Part shown: piece after piece, positions 2,987 through 61,017 of the stretch
Layout: each line of letters opens with the position of its first letter
Numbering within the stretch: position 1 is the first letter of the stretch
Assembly (NCBI RefSeq): GCF_005405545.1
Contig: NZ_BJEG01000004.1
Span: forward strand, 4,946 to 68,945
Direction of reading: 5' to 3'
DNA length: 64,000 bases
DNA from: Weissella hellenica
GTDB lineage: Bacteria; Bacillota; Bacilli; Lactobacillales; Lactobacillaceae
The notes under the pieces: model-generated
What the model was told of the DNA's origin: nothing
The model's input: only the letters and a program-made list of their open reading frames with translations
Database searches by the model: none
Position numbers and translations under genes: made by a program

Positions 2987-3048
2987 TTTTTAAAACGAAA
3001 GAATTATGAAACTTTTTTGTAACTTTGATTGTATATATTATATATATT

Positions 3049-3196
3049 CACTTTTGTTAGTGGAATTCATTACTCCCCAAAGTATATGAAATTACATAGT
3101 TCCCCAAACTATGTATCCCCCCCTTCGCTGGTTGCGATAGTAGCCGGCGGTGGACCATCGTTGCGTTCCCCCTCTTGCACGATGGTCTTTTTTTTA
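3049..3196 (+). ncRNA. Candidate trans-acting small RNA with C-rich hairpin loops
   Basis: An intergenic unit of about 145 bases with no plausible ORF. It shows hairpin 1 (TACT/AGTA around CCCCAA, 3071-3084), hairpin 2 (ACATAGT 3094-3100 with ACTATGT 3108-3114, loop TCCCCAA), a single-stranded run of seven C at 3117-3123, and a terminator (GACCATCG 3153-3160 with CGATGGTC 3180-3187, then T8). The terminator loop GTTCCCCCTCTT is also C-rich. Four exposed CCCC motifs that could pair with Shine-Dalgarno sequences are the hallmark of Firmicute regulators such as RsaE/RoxS, LhrC and the streptococcal csRNAs; I see no direct sequence homology to them. An AT-rich promoter-like stretch lies at about 3013-3048 but cannot be pinned, so the 5' end is approximate. 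Confidence 0.65.
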
Positions 3197-3262: not shown

Positions 3263-3706
3263 TTATTTAGCTTTTGCTATTGCTAGATTTAAGGTATAAG
3301 TACCAATGATGCTATCATTATTAAGTAATGAATAAGTGATTGCTAGTTTACCGTAAGGGTGTTCAGCAGTGATTTGATTAACAAATGTATCGGTACGAAC
3401 TGCTATTGGGATATTTCCCTGAGTAGTAACGTACTGCGTTTGAAAGGTTTTATTTGGTGCGAAATGCAGCTGCATGTCAGTGAAGTCATTGTGGCGATGT
3501 AATAAAATATCATCAATTTTTGATATTTTAAATGTAACAGGTGTCTCAAGATCTTGTTGTCGCTCTGTGTAACGAATATATAATGCGTTTTGAGTAAGTG
3601 TTAAAATACCTTCTTCTTCAAATGAGAATTCTTCACGACTGTTATCTTGGGTGATTTGTGTGGTGAGGGTGACGACTGTTGGCCAACTTTTTCGTGTTGT
3701 TTGCAT
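3263..3706 (-). CDS. DUF1934 (YwiB-like) beta-barrel protein
   Basis: A 147-residue protein matching the DUF1934/YwiB family in length and composition. These are small cytoplasmic proteins with a lipocalin-like barrel and no assigned biochemical role. The alternating strand pattern (GILTLTQNALYIRYTE, then FNL-type strands ending IGTYTLNLAIAKAK) fits. There is no signal peptide or membrane segment. AAGGAG sits seven bases before the ATG on the minus strand. It is a single-gene unit facing leftward into the bidirectional terminator. The family call is from pattern recognition. Confidence 0.8.
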   Translation of the reverse strand: MQTTRKSWPTVVTLTTQITQDNSREEFSFEEEGILTLTQNALYIRYTERQQDLETPVTFKISKIDDILLHRHNDFTDMQLHFAPNKTFQTQYVTTQGNIPIAVRTDTFVNQITAEHPYGKLAITYSLLNNDSIIGTYTLNLAIAKAK

Positions 3707-42867: not shown

Positions 42868-42979
42868 GTGCTTTTTTTCAGGAAAATACTTTAATTTTGG
42901 AACATTATACATTATATTTAATGAGTAGTTCGTAATTATCGAACAATATAATTGGTTTTTTGATAAAAAGGAGTAAAAA

Positions 42980-44029
42980 ATGGCTTCAAACGCAAAGATG
43001 TGGGTGGCAGGTGCCGCAGTTGTAATTATTGCAGGGGGTGCATATGCCGCTTGGTCTGGAAACAAGTCAGGTGATACTAAGGATGATAAAACCTCAGTTG
43101 CCTTGATAACTGATGGTGGTGGAATTGATGATAAGTCATTCAATCAATCAGCTTGGGAAGGTATGAAAGCTTGGGCAAAGGATAATGGTGTTAAAGAAGG
43201 AAAGGGTGGCTATGCTTACTATCCTTCAAAGACCAGTGCAGATTTTACCACTAATATAGATCAAGCACGTTCTGATGGTTTTAAGAACATTTATGGTATT
43301 GGTTTCCAATTGGTTTCAACAATTAACGAACAATCAAAGAAAAATCCAAATACTAACTATATGATTATTGATGATATTGCTAAAGCACGTAAGAATACGG
43401 TTTCGGTAACGTTTAAGTCTGAGCAATCATCATACTTGGCTGGTGTTGCGGCTGCTAAGACAACCAAAACAGACAAAGTTGGGTTTGTCGGTGGTATGAA
43501 GTCAGCGGTTGTGCAATCGTTTGAAAAGGGCTTTACTGCTGGCGCTAAGTCAGTTAACCCTGATATTGAGGTTGATGCACAGTATGTTGGTAGCTTTACT
43601 GATGCTGGTAAGGGTAAGACCATTGCCTCAACGATGTATCAAAGCGGTACTGATGTGGTCTTTACGGCCGCTGGTGGTTCTGGAGCCGGTGTATTTACAG
43701 AAGCTAAGGATCTAAACAAAGCTCAAAATGCAGCTGATAAAGTTTGGGTAATTGGTGTTGACCGTGATCAAAATTCTGACGGTGCCTATACAGCGAAGGA
43801 CGGTAAATCTAACTTTACACTAACATCTTCTGTTAAAAGGGTTGGTAAGGCTGTGAGTGATGTGACTGAAAAGACTGCTAAGGGAAACTTCCCTGGTGGT
43901 AAGCACCTTGTGTATGGATTAGATGATAAGGGTGTTGCTTTGACACGTGGTCATATGTCTAAGGACACATGGGCAGCTGTACAAGATGCTCAGAAGAAGA
44001 TTATCGATGGTGATGTTAAAGTTCAGTAA
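42980..44029 (+). CDS. BMP/PnrA-family nucleoside-binding protein, lipobox lost
   Basis: A 349-residue extracellular binding protein of the BMP family (TmpC/PnrA/Med), which captures purine nucleosides for ABC import. ALITDGGGIDDKSFNQSAWEG (residues 36-56 region) is the family hallmark, and VGFVGGMKSAVVQSFEKGF follows. The N-terminus (MWVAGAAVVIIAGGAYAAWSGNKSGD) has the shape of a lipoprotein signal, but where the Cys should be it reads AAWSGNK; no Cys occurs in the protein. It may stay membrane-anchored by this helix. No ABC ATPase or permease is adjacent, so it works with a system encoded elsewhere. Confidence 0.9.
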   Translation: MASNAKMWVAGAAVVIIAGGAYAAWSGNKSGDTKDDKTSVALITDGGGIDDKSFNQSAWEGMKAWAKDNGVKEGKGGYAYYPSKTSADFTTNIDQARSDGFKNIYGIGFQLVSTINEQSKKNPNTNYMIIDDIAKARKNTVSVTFKSEQSSYLAGVAAAKTTKTDKVGFVGGMKSAVVQSFEKGFTAGAKSVNPDIEVDAQYVGSFTDAGKGKTIASTMYQSGTDVVFTAAGGSGAGVFTEAKDLNKAQNAADKVWVIGVDRDQNSDGAYTAKDGKSNFTLTSSVKRVGKAVSDVTEKTAKGNFPGGKHLVYGLDDKGVALTRGHMSKDTWAAVQDAQKKIIDGDVKVQ

Positions 44030-45490: not shown

Positions 45491-45540
45491 CCTGCGTAAT
45501 GTTCGTTATTAACGAACGCTGCGCAGGATTTTTATTTTTA
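45491..45540 (+). terminator. Terminator after the second MFS gene
   Basis: CCTGCG/CGCAGG and inner GTTCGT/ACGAAC stems, followed by TTTTTATTTTTA. Confidence 0.88.
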
Positions 45541-45575: not shown

Positions 45576-45604
45576 TTTACAATATCCATTTTTTGGGATA
45601 TTAT
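45576..45604 (+). promoter_or_regulatory. Promoter of the G-rich-loop small RNA
   Basis: TTTACA (45576-45581), a 17-base spacer and TATTAT (45599-45604). The start is expected near 45611, immediately before the first hairpin. Confidence 0.65.
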
Positions 45605-45610
45605 AAATAT

Positions 45611-45757
45611 AATGCTTGAGGGGAAACGCAAGCGATATAAAATACATATAGGGATATGTGATAGTAGTTAAAAAGATGCTTACAAATATTGGGGTAATTA
45701 CGCTTTAACTTATCATAATCTAAAAAAGGTTGGTAAATTTACCAACCTTTTTTAGTC
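45611..45757 (+). ncRNA. Candidate small RNA with G-rich hairpin loops
   Basis: A unit of about 147 bases with its own promoter and a perfect 32-base palindromic terminator (45722-45753, A6...T6). There is no plausible ORF. Hairpins: GCTTG/CAAGC (45614-45633) with loop AGGGGAAACG; ACATAT/ATATGT (45644-45659) with loop AGGG; ATT/AAT (45688-45698) around GGGG. Bases 45618-45631 are complementary to 3161-3174 of the C-rich-loop RNA at 13 of 14 positions. The first loop also copies the argG ribosome site (GAGGGGAAAC). It could be a sponge for the other RNA. The downstream gene has its own promoter (CTGACA, 17 bases, TATACT), so this is not simply its leader. Confidence 0.6.
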
Positions 45758-45840
45758 TTGATATAAAATAGCGATGCCTGACAAAGATAATGATATCCGT
45801 TATACTTGTTAAAAAGAGATGAGAGAAGTAAGGAGAATAA

Positions 45841-48776: not shown

Positions 48777-48811
48777 ATTATTTAAAAAACGGTCAAAGAG
48801 GGGAAACAATT

Positions 48812-50035
48812 ATGAGCAAAAAGAAAGTGGTTTTAGCATATTCTGGTGGATTAGATACCTCAGTTGAAATTGCCTGGTTAAAAAATGCGGGGTATGACGT
48901 GATTGCATGTTGTATTGATGTTGGGGAAGAGAAGGATTTGGTTAAGATTCAGGAGAAGGGGAAGCAAGTTGGGGCTAGTGAATCTGTTGTTATTGATGCG
49001 CAACAGGAATTTGCAGAGGAATATGTATTAGTTGCGCTACAAGCGCATGCTTATTATGAAGGTGAGTATCCTTTGATTTCAGCGTTATCACGACCATTGA
49101 TTGCAAAGAAACTTGTTGAAGTTGCTAACAAGTATGGGGCAACAGCAATTGCTCATGGTTGCACGGGTAAAGGTAATGATCAGGTACGTTTTGAAACAGA
49201 AATTCATGCATTAGCGCCAGAAATGAAGATTGAAGATCCTATCCGTGATCAACATATGTCACGTGAAATGGAAATTGCGTATGCAAAAGAGAATGGCATC
49301 CCTGTTCCAATTACAAAAGAAAGTCCTTATTCCATCGATGAAAATCTTTGGGGTCGTGCCAATGAATGTGGTTTATTGGAGGATCCATGGGCAACAGCAC
49401 CCGAGGATGCTTATGAGCGGACAAATGCACTAGAAAATACGCCAGACACACCAGACTATGTAGAAATCACCTTTGATCAGGGAATCCCAGTGGCGCTTAA
49501 TGGTCAAACATATGAATTGGCTGAGCTCATTAAAGAACTTAATCAAGTGGCTGGTAAGCATGGAATTGGGCGTATCGATCATGTAGAAAATCGTTTGATT
49601 GGTATCAAGTCACGTGAAATTTATGAAGCACCTGGTGCCGAAGTTTTGCTAAAAGCGCATAAAGATTTGGAAGATTTAACAACGACAAAAGATTTGGCAC
49701 ATTTTAAGCCAATTATTGAGAAACAAATTGCTGAGACCATTTATAATGCTTTACGGTATACACCATTATTTGATTCATTAAAGGCATTTATTCGTGAAAG
49801 TCAAAAAGAAGTGAACGGTGTTGTTCGTGTCAAAATGTTTAAAGGCAATGTGATTTGTGAAGGTCGCCAATCAGACAACTCTCTATATAGCCTGGATTTG
49901 GCTACGTATACTTCAGCAGATGCCTTTGATCAGGAATCAGCTGCGGGCTTTATTAAACTGTATAGTTTACCTTCAGTTGTTCATGCCCAAGTGCAGCAAA
50001 AATTAACAGCAGCTGAACAATTAGTTTTAAAGTAG
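48812..50035 (+). CDS. argG: Argininosuccinate synthase
   Basis: A 407-residue enzyme that joins citrulline and aspartate using ATP. The ATP loop [10 protein letters not shown] is at residues 9-18, with [23 protein letters not shown] and [12 protein letters not shown] following. It leads a two-gene operon with argH. The ribosome site AAGAGGGGAAAC (48796-48807) pairs at 11 of 12 positions with the C-rich loop of the small RNA at 3049-3196. Compared with neighbours it uses more GGG, AAG and GAG codons at the start, a slight hint of different origin. With only G and H here, the cell may convert citrulline rather than build arginine fully. Confidence 0.97.
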
Positions 50036-58816: not shown

Positions 58817-61017
58817 TGACACCAGGTAATTTAATTGAATTTGATGAAAAGACGCAATCCTTCCATTTGCATAACGATGAAATTTCATATGTACTGGGTA
58901 TTGAAGAAGATGGCGTTTTAGCGCACCTGTATTATGGACAAAGAATTAAGCAGTATCGTGGTCACCTCAAGAGTCCTAGACTTGATCGTGGCTTTTCGGG
59001 TAACTTACCAGGCTCATTAGACCGCACATACTCATTAGATGCAATTTTGCGTGAATATAGTTATGAGGGGGATGGGGATTATAGATCGCCAGCGCTGGTG
59101 ATTCGTCAAGCAGATGGAAGCCGGTCAGCATTCTTCAAATACCAAGATCATACAATTTCGGATGGTAAACCTAAGTTAGTGGGGTTACCAGCGACATATG
59201 TTATGGATGATACTGAAGCACAGACATTGACCATTAATTTAGTTGATGAAGTGAGTCAATTAAATCTGGCGATGAATTATACGATTTATCGCCAACGACC
59301 AGTTATTACTCGTTCTGTCCAAATCATTAATAATGGTGATCAAGCGGTTCACGTAGAGAAAGTGGCCTCAATGATGATTGATTTACCGGCCGGCGCAAAG
59401 GACGTCATTTCCTTGCCAGGTGGACAAGTTAATGAACGTAATATTAACCGCGAACCAATTACGTTTGGTACGAAAGTATTCCAAAGTCGCCGTGGTACGA
59501 CAAGTCATCATATGAATAATTTTATTGCAATTGCCGATACGCATGCTGATGAATTTCAAGGTGAAGTATTTGGATTAAGTTTTGTTTATTCGGGAAATCA
59601 TAAAGAAGAAGTCAGCAAGGATCCATATGGTACGTATCGGATTGCTGTTGGTGTTAATGATGACCAATTTGATTGGGAGCTTGCACCAAAAGATAGTTTC
59701 CAAACGCCCGAAGTGATTATGACGTATTCGCATACTGGTTTGAATGGCATGAGTCAGGCACTGCATGATGTCTTACGACAACGCATTGTTCGTAGTAAAT
59801 ATAAAAATACAGCACGACCAATTGTTGTGAATAATTGGGAAGCAACTTTTATGGACTTTGATGAAGCCAGATTACAACCAATTGTTGATGAAGCCAAAGA
59901 AATGGGCATTGAGATGTTTGTGCTTGATGATGGCTGGTTAGGTCATCGTGATGATGACAACACATCATTAGGCGATTGGCAGGTATTAGCAAAGAAATTC
60001 CCACAGGGATTGCAACATTTCGCAGATTATATTCATGAACGTGATTTACAATTTGGTATCTGGTTTGAACCAGAAATGATTTCGATTGATTCTGATTTGT
60101 ATAAAAACCATCCAGAATATATGCTTAAGGTTCCAAACCGTAACCCCAGCCCATCACGTAATCAATATGTATTAGATATCGGGCGACCAGAAGTTCGTGA
60201 AAATATTCATGCCCAAATGAAGACCATTCTTGATAATGCGGACATTGATTATGTGAAGTGGGATATGAACCGTAATTTGACTGACATTTATGCAACTGAT
60301 TTACCAGCAGATCGTCAGGGTGAAGTGATGCACCGTTATGTCTTGGGCTTGTATCAATTGCTAGAAGATTTGACGACTGAGTACCCAGATATTCTGTGGG
60401 AAGGTTGCTCGGGTGGTGGAGGCCGTATTGATGCTGGTTTCATGTATTACATGCCACAATCTTGGGCTAGTGATAACACCGATGCTGTTGCGCGCATGCA
60501 GATTCAATATGGGACATCAATTGCTTACCCAACTTCATCGTTTACTTCACACGTTTCAGAGGCACCAAATCAGCAAACGGGACGCTATACATCACTTCAG
60601 ACACGTGGTGCAGTTGCAATGAGTAGTGTCTTTGGCTATGAGTTGGATCTTACTCAGATGGATGATGAAGAGAAACAAGCTGTTAAAGAGCAAGTCGCAC
60701 AGTATAAGCAAATACGTCAATTAGTACAATATGGGCAATATAGTCGTTTACTGGATCCAAGTGAAGGTAATCGGGGAGCTTGGATGTTTGTTAGTGAAGA
60801 TAAAAATGAAGCTTTAGTATTCTCGTTTAATATTTTGTCACAGGCCCAGCCAGAAAATAACACGCTTAAGTTAGTGGATTTGGATGCTGATAAAGTATAT
60901 CAAAATGTTGTTACGGGTGATGAATTTGGTGGGGATGAATTAATGCATGCCGGCATTTATGAACCAGCTGTATTTTCAGATTTTAATGCAGTAATTTACC
61001 ATTATAAGGCTAAGTAA
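58816..61017 (+). CDS. agaA: Alpha-galactosidase, GH36
   Basis: A 733-residue glycoside hydrolase family 36 enzyme that releases galactose from melibiose, raffinose and stachyose. Layout: N-terminal beta-supersandwich (to about 330), TIM barrel with FVLDDGWLGHRDDD, nucleophile Asp483 in YVKWDMNRNLTD, WEGCSGGGGRID, and acid/base Asp553 in SWASDNTDA, then a C-terminal beta domain. No signal peptide, so it acts inside the cell on imported sugar. The start overlaps the transporter stop (TAATG), so translation is coupled. All catalytic residues are intact. Confidence 0.97.
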   Translation: MTPGNLIEFDEKTQSFHLHNDEISYVLGIEEDGVLAHLYYGQRIKQYRGHLKSPRLDRGFSGNLPGSLDRTYSLDAILREYSYEGDGDYRSPALVIRQADGSRSAFFKYQDHTISDGKPKLVGLPATYVMDDTEAQTLTINLVDEVSQLNLAMNYTIYRQRPVITRSVQIINNGDQAVHVEKVASMMIDLPAGAKDVISLPGGQVNERNINREPITFGTKVFQSRRGTTSHHMNNFIAIADTHADEFQGEVFGLSFVYSGNHKEEVSKDPYGTYRIAVGVNDDQFDWELAPKDSFQTPEVIMTYSHTGLNGMSQALHDVLRQRIVRSKYKNTARPIVVNNWEATFMDFDEARLQPIVDEAKEMGIEMFVLDDGWLGHRDDDNTSLGDWQVLAKKFPQGLQHFADYIHERDLQFGIWFEPEMISIDSDLYKNHPEYMLKVPNRNPSPSRNQYVLDIGRPEVRENIHAQMKTILDNADIDYVKWDMNRNLTDIYATDLPADRQGEVMHRYVLGLYQLLEDLTTEYPDILWEGCSGGGGRIDAGFMYYMPQSWASDNTDAVARMQIQYGTSIAYPTSSFTSHVSEAPNQQTGRYTSLQTRGAVAMSSVFGYELDLTQMDDEEKQAVKEQVAQYKQIRQLVQYGQYSRLLDPSEGNRGAWMFVSEDKNEALVFSFNILSQAQPENNTLKLVDLDADKVYQNVVTGDEFGGDELMHAGIYEPAVFSDFNAVIYHYKAK

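Follow-up and report, generated by a model that had tools for sequence, protein, structure and literature searches.

Does the G-rich small RNA encoded at 45611–45757 of this Weissella hellenica sequence act as a sponge for a second, C-rich small RNA encoded elsewhere in the window, by which we mean the whole 64-kb stretch of DNA analysed? A first-pass annotation had proposed that G-rich loops of the first RNA (here G-RNA) titrate the C-rich RNA (C-RNA) by loop–loop contact. The genes of the two RNAs share a strand and are separated by 42 kb, so that G-RNA is not a cis-encoded antisense RNA of C-RNA. A perfectly conserved 17-base segment of G-RNA is able to pair with the terminator loop of C-RNA, and G-RNA is for this reason probably a decoy. 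We judge base pairing between the two RNAs to be likely, somewhat more so than the action of G-RNA as a stand-alone decoy, a reading that we mildly favour on the strength of its sequence and that claims no homology to the known RNAs RosA or RsaI.

Architecture of the G-RNA locus

G-RNA, predicted to comprise about 147 nt, is flanked by genes for an MFS transporter and for an SseB-domain protein; its features all lie on the plus strand. The unit had been credited with its own promoter and a perfect terminator, and our analysis bears out both at the level of sequence and predicted fold. A promoter-like TTTACA-17-TATTAT is found at 45576–45604, with 10 of 12 consensus matches and an expected transcription start near 45611, and TTTAC and the −10 region are kept in six species. 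At the other end, the predicted fold contains an intrinsic terminator with a perfect 16-bp stem (45720–45755), which a simple terminator scan missed, probably because the T run sits inside the stem. The fold z-score of the whole RNA is −5.1, largely owed to this terminator. Together with homologues in five further Weissella species, these features point to a small RNA gene. The SseB-domain gene downstream has a promoter-like sequence of its own (45778–45806).

The 5′ hairpin of G-RNA carries the predicted C-RNA-pairing element, GCTTGAGGGGAAACGCA(A/G), at 45614–45631. Further downstream are a block that we refer to as the second invariant block, AAATACATATAG (45640–45651), a second G-rich loop, AGGG (45650–45653), and a third G-rich segment, TTGGGGTAAT (45689–45698).

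A structured C-rich RNA in six genera

C-RNA occupies positions 3047 to 3195, approximately, of the plus strand, between htrA (1704–2945) and a DUF1934 gene on the minus strand (3263–3706). Its conserved, covarying structure presents four C-rich unpaired segments, including loop 1, CTCCCC (3073–3078), and loop 2, TTCCCC (3100–3105). The 3′ end forms a terminator hairpin with the loop GUUCCCCCUCUU, where the putative pairing site, TTGCGTTCCCCCTC, resides (3161–3174). In an alignment of sequences from 17 genomes, CCCCCTCTTGC of the pairing site and the first loop, CTCCCCAAAG, are invariant, and the stems covary, with both-sided changes in 21 of 46 pairs.

By BLAST, C-RNA was matched at E ≤ 1e-4 in 21 of 28 Weissella genomes, to which a covariance model added one more (G013). 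Across the family, the model found C-RNA in 34 of 251 genomes and in 6 of 40 genera, namely Weissella and five further Lactobacillaceae genera; three distant matches that we inspected have a similar layout, with the loop CCCCCCTCTTGC. C-RNA is apparently an undescribed structured sRNA of these six genera, with CCCCCTCTTGC almost invariant in its terminator loop. Judged by its unpaired segments, it belongs to the C-rich-loop sRNAs, which in other Firmicutes block ribosome-binding sites: like RoxS/RsaE, FsrA, LhrC and the hairpins of RNAIII, it has several unpaired C-rich loops complementary to ribosome-binding sites, although, unlike these, it matched no Rfam family at the gathering score. One of the C-rich hairpins of RNAIII, H14, is likewise its terminator (PMC8383071). 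Most Weissella have C-RNA without G-RNA, and the C-rich loop is equally well conserved where G-RNA is absent; its conservation therefore cannot be credited to G-RNA and must have other reasons. Upstream of the homologue in another genus (L217–L219), TTCACA/TTCATA-like direct repeats occur with a spacing of about 11 bases, which could be a response-regulator box.

Complementarity between the two RNAs

The complementarity at the heart of the proposal was confirmed exactly: GAGGGGAAACGCAA (45618–45631) and TTGCGTTCCCCCTC form 13 of 14 possible Watson–Crick pairs, with a single internal A/C mismatch. At least 13 of 14 pairs to C-RNA were reached by 0.56% of 5000 dinucleotide shuffles of G-RNA and by 0.3% in a repeat (p ~0.005). 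When each of six species was compared with its own partner, shuffle p values ranged from 0.000 (of 1000) to 0.047; in five of the six, the best G-RNA 14-mer against the cognate C-RNA was this very site at 13/14, and W. paramesenteroides reached 12/14 there. In the 64-kb window, 45618–45631 is the only site with at least 13 of 14 pairs to a C-rich loop; the other site of that quality, at 58877, is AT-rich and pairs with a stem arm of C-RNA. In the whole genome, leaving out the antisense strand of C-RNA itself, the loop complement occurs with at most one mismatch in two places, one being the G-RNA element and the other a ribosome-binding site that belongs to an HD-domain protein gene.

Both segments had been placed largely in hairpin loops, and the predicted folds agree: the probability of being unpaired is near 1.0 for the C's of the pairing site, and GGGGAAA of G-RNA is mostly unpaired, with the flanking GCUUG/CAAGC forming a stem. 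The predicted duplex joins GC-uu-GAGGGG-a-AACGCA of G-RNA with UGCGUU-c-CCCCUC-uu-GC of C-RNA. Hybrid energies of cognate pairs lie between −27 and −31 kcal/mol, and cofolding of the two RNAs yields −103.1 kcal/mol versus −90.0 kcal/mol for the separate molecules, a gain of about 13 kcal/mol. Whole-molecule RNAduplex energies were uninformative, since long loops are allowed (−56 kcal/mol observed, shuffle p 0.04, with many coding segments scoring better), and ungapped 14-mer counts were used in their place. The match is of the kind expected of a sponge, which should be specifically complementary to the seed of its partner sRNA, provided that the terminator loop serves as the seed of C-RNA.

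Conservation of the pairing element

G-RNA homologues were found in five other Weissella species only, each upstream of the SseB-domain gene, giving six species in all: W. hellenica itself, W. sagaensis, W. bombi, W. paramesenteroides, W. thailandensis and W. fangxianensis. A search of the genus by BLAST and by pattern with two mismatches returned no homologue outside these six, and a plasmid collection returned no match. Other Weissella genomes keep the SseB-domain gene without a preceding G-RNA, among them G003, G005, G006 and G007 and genomes presumably of the W. confusa/cibaria type. G-RNA is therefore restricted to one clade and probably recent.

Within the six-species alignment, GCTTGAGGGGAAACGCA (45614–45630) is invariant in 17 of 17 columns, the longest invariant run, for which p = 0.0007 in 200 columns under an assumed 50% chance of invariance per column, a conservative assumption. 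By comparison, 15 of 75 columns are kept in the body from 45654 to 45720 and 14 of 45 in the terminator. The two further G-rich loops of the first-pass annotation are present in W. hellenica and are said to face C-rich partners with shorter matches; they are short and not conserved among the six species. The second reads AGGG, AGGGG or GGGG in three species and AGAGG or AGTGG in the other three, and the third has a counterpart in W. sagaensis only. Only one clear contact between the RNAs is left, not three.

The most serious alternative is that something other than C-RNA keeps the element conserved, for instance a protein or nuclease that binds its hairpin or some other partner of a G-rich site, and that its match to C-RNA is incidental. 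The block AAATACATATAG, also invariant in all six species, speaks for it: the best pairing of this block with C-RNA is only 9/13, which indicates that G-RNA is under other constraints as well. Moreover, a shuffle p of 0.005 is not extreme when many segments have been compared. Against this stands the coincidence of the invariant 17-nt block with the span of the predicted duplex. In addition, where the right arm of the hairpin is altered (CAAGC to CAAAGC/CAGAGC), the duplex segment is unchanged, and in W. thailandensis and W. fangxianensis, despite such an altered arm, a duplex pair is restored. We consider an incidental match unlikely.

The restored pair lies at the edge of the duplex. Written as C-RNA base and G-RNA base, the two positions facing each other at G-RNA position 45631 read T and A in W. 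hellenica, W. sagaensis and W. bombi, C and A in W. paramesenteroides, and C and G in W. thailandensis and W. fangxianensis. A T–A pair has hence become C–G in the last two species, and W. paramesenteroides shows a C/A mismatch. In its own consensus hairpin the changed base of C-RNA is bulged, and that hairpin therefore does not explain the change. This is one compensatory event with an intermediate state, which proves little alone. Co-variation of the paired loops, suggested earlier as a check, is accordingly seen at one edge pair in two species, with W. paramesenteroides mismatched; and a change of one loop without the other, which had been named as evidence against the pair, occurs at this single edge pair in W. 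paramesenteroides. A sponge pair remains the best reading, with the complementary block the most conserved and its edge pair compensatory.

A possible decoy ribosome-binding site

The HD-domain protein gene that shares the loop complement carries GAGGGGGAACGCTATG as its ribosome-binding site, a near-perfect match in the same genome. As this is the only other near-perfect match in the genome, the G-RNA element looks like a mimic of a target site, with the caveat that GAGGGG is also a common ribosome-binding-site motif. We propose that the 5′ hairpin of G-RNA displays AGGGGAAACG, resembling the ribosome-binding sites that C-RNA would target. Contact would begin between the G-RNA loop and the C-rich terminator loop of C-RNA, and the duplex would then zip along GC-uu-GAGGGG-a-AACGCA. 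The zipped duplex would sequester the C-RNA seed, perhaps opening C-RNA to an RNase, and target mRNAs would be freed from repression when G-RNA is made.

Two candidate targets were considered and rejected. For the HD-domain gene, most genomes of the nearer groups retain GAGGGGG, but GAGGGGGAACGC is found in W. hellenica and W. sagaensis only, and GA is inserted in W. bombi. Close to the loop complement as well is the ribosome-binding site of argG (48797–48814), which reads AAAGAGGGGAAACAATTATG, or AAAGAGGGGGAACGATTATG in W. paramesenteroides. At this gene (48812), GAGGGGAAACAATTATG and, in W. paramesenteroides, GAGGGGGAACGATTATG match the loop, but the match is not conserved, the counterpart in W. 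thailandensis and W. fangxianensis being GAGAGGGAATTG.

A further alternative casts G-RNA as a short mRNA or a leader, with its G-rich site being targeted by C-RNA. A frame of 19–24 codons (MLEGKRK....IHIG..) does run across the element in W. hellenica, W. sagaensis and W. bombi; in the second of these, GAGGGG also precedes ATG AAA TAC ATA TAG, and B. subtilis RosA likewise contains a tiny ORF (PMC8216469). However, the frame begins at or beside the expected transcript start and has no ribosome-binding site; in W. paramesenteroides it starts with TTG and stops after 9 codons, and in W. thailandensis and W. fangxianensis TAG occupies the start position. No reading frame is common to all six homologues, and no start codon is conserved downstream of the element. 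A coding or leader role is accordingly improbable.

Relation to known sponges

For the decoy reading of G-RNA, the closest likeness is RosA of Bacillus subtilis, a proven sponge of the sRNAs RoxS and FsrA. In 2021 it was presented as the first stand-alone sRNA sponge to be confirmed in Gram-positive bacteria (PMC8216469). RosA is controlled by CcpA and has three G-rich regions (PMC8216469); it exposes RoxS to decay. Both RNAs are stand-alone, G-rich and complementary to a C-rich, older sRNA, and both have a narrower range than their partners (PMC8216469). G-RNA differs in having one conserved G-rich site versus three regions, and in its predicted pairing with the terminator loop of the partner. 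Homology to RosA or RsaI is not claimed: G-RNA matched no Rfam family at the gathering score. Rfam matches to FsrA (minus strand), rli38, STnc390 and STnc430, with low E-values, fell far below gathering on the AU-rich terminator and were discarded.

Less close is RsaI (RsaOG) of Staphylococcus aureus, in which a G-rich segment pairs with the C-rich tracts of the sRNAs RsaG, RsaD and RsaE (PMC8383071). RsaI also binds mRNAs by a CU-rich segment of its own, and none is evident in G-RNA. G-RNA might in principle also regulate other C-rich sequences in trans and independently, with C-RNA as one of several partners. Such a role would follow the dual one of RsaI, which binds mRNAs and several C-rich sRNAs (PMC8383071), but seems hardly probable, as G-RNA is little conserved outside the element and one AU-rich block and has no apparent C-rich mRNA-binding segment.

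The first-pass annotation knew of no such pair in this lineage. The literature that we searched, which left many subscription papers outside, agrees in describing no sRNA sponge in Lactobacillaceae, yet the arrangement itself is known from RosA with RoxS/FsrA and from RsaI. We advance tentatively, as something short of an even prospect, a more specific history: a recent sponge of the W. paramesenteroides/W. hellenica branch may have gained a decoy ribosome-binding site directed at the terminator loop of an undescribed C-rich sRNA widespread in Lactobacillaceae. If true, this would be the first sRNA–sRNA pair described in Lactobacillaceae, as far as the searched literature shows, and its sponge would attach to the loop of an intrinsic terminator. 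Few stand-alone sRNA sponges have been confirmed in Gram-positive bacteria; another example beside RosA, from lactic acid bacteria associated with food and with an old partner and a young sponge, would show how decoys arise and would also point to an undescribed C-rich sRNA family in several Lactobacillaceae genera. Laboratory strains of several Weissella species, of which some have the sponge and others lack it, make the idea testable.

Upstream region of G-RNA

Three exact matches to a purine-box-like motif (42935–42947, 43322–43334 and 45498–45510) lie around a PnrA-like lipoprotein gene and upstream of G-RNA; with one mismatch allowed, the motif shows no enrichment across the window. The motif, AWWWNCGAACWWT, resembles the purine repressor box of PurR; the copy at 42935 precedes the lipoprotein gene, and the one at 45498 lies about 110 bases before G-RNA. 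All six species retain AATGTTCG or, as its reverse complement, CGAACATT upstream of G-RNA; putative purine-box control of G-RNA is a lead only. W. bombi (L005/L093) lacks the MFS transporter gene that separates the lipoprotein gene from G-RNA. Its SseB-domain protein is 96% identical to that of W. hellenica, yet its intergenic region is only 71% identical, versus 90% and 89% in W. sagaensis, a contrast that suggests recombination.
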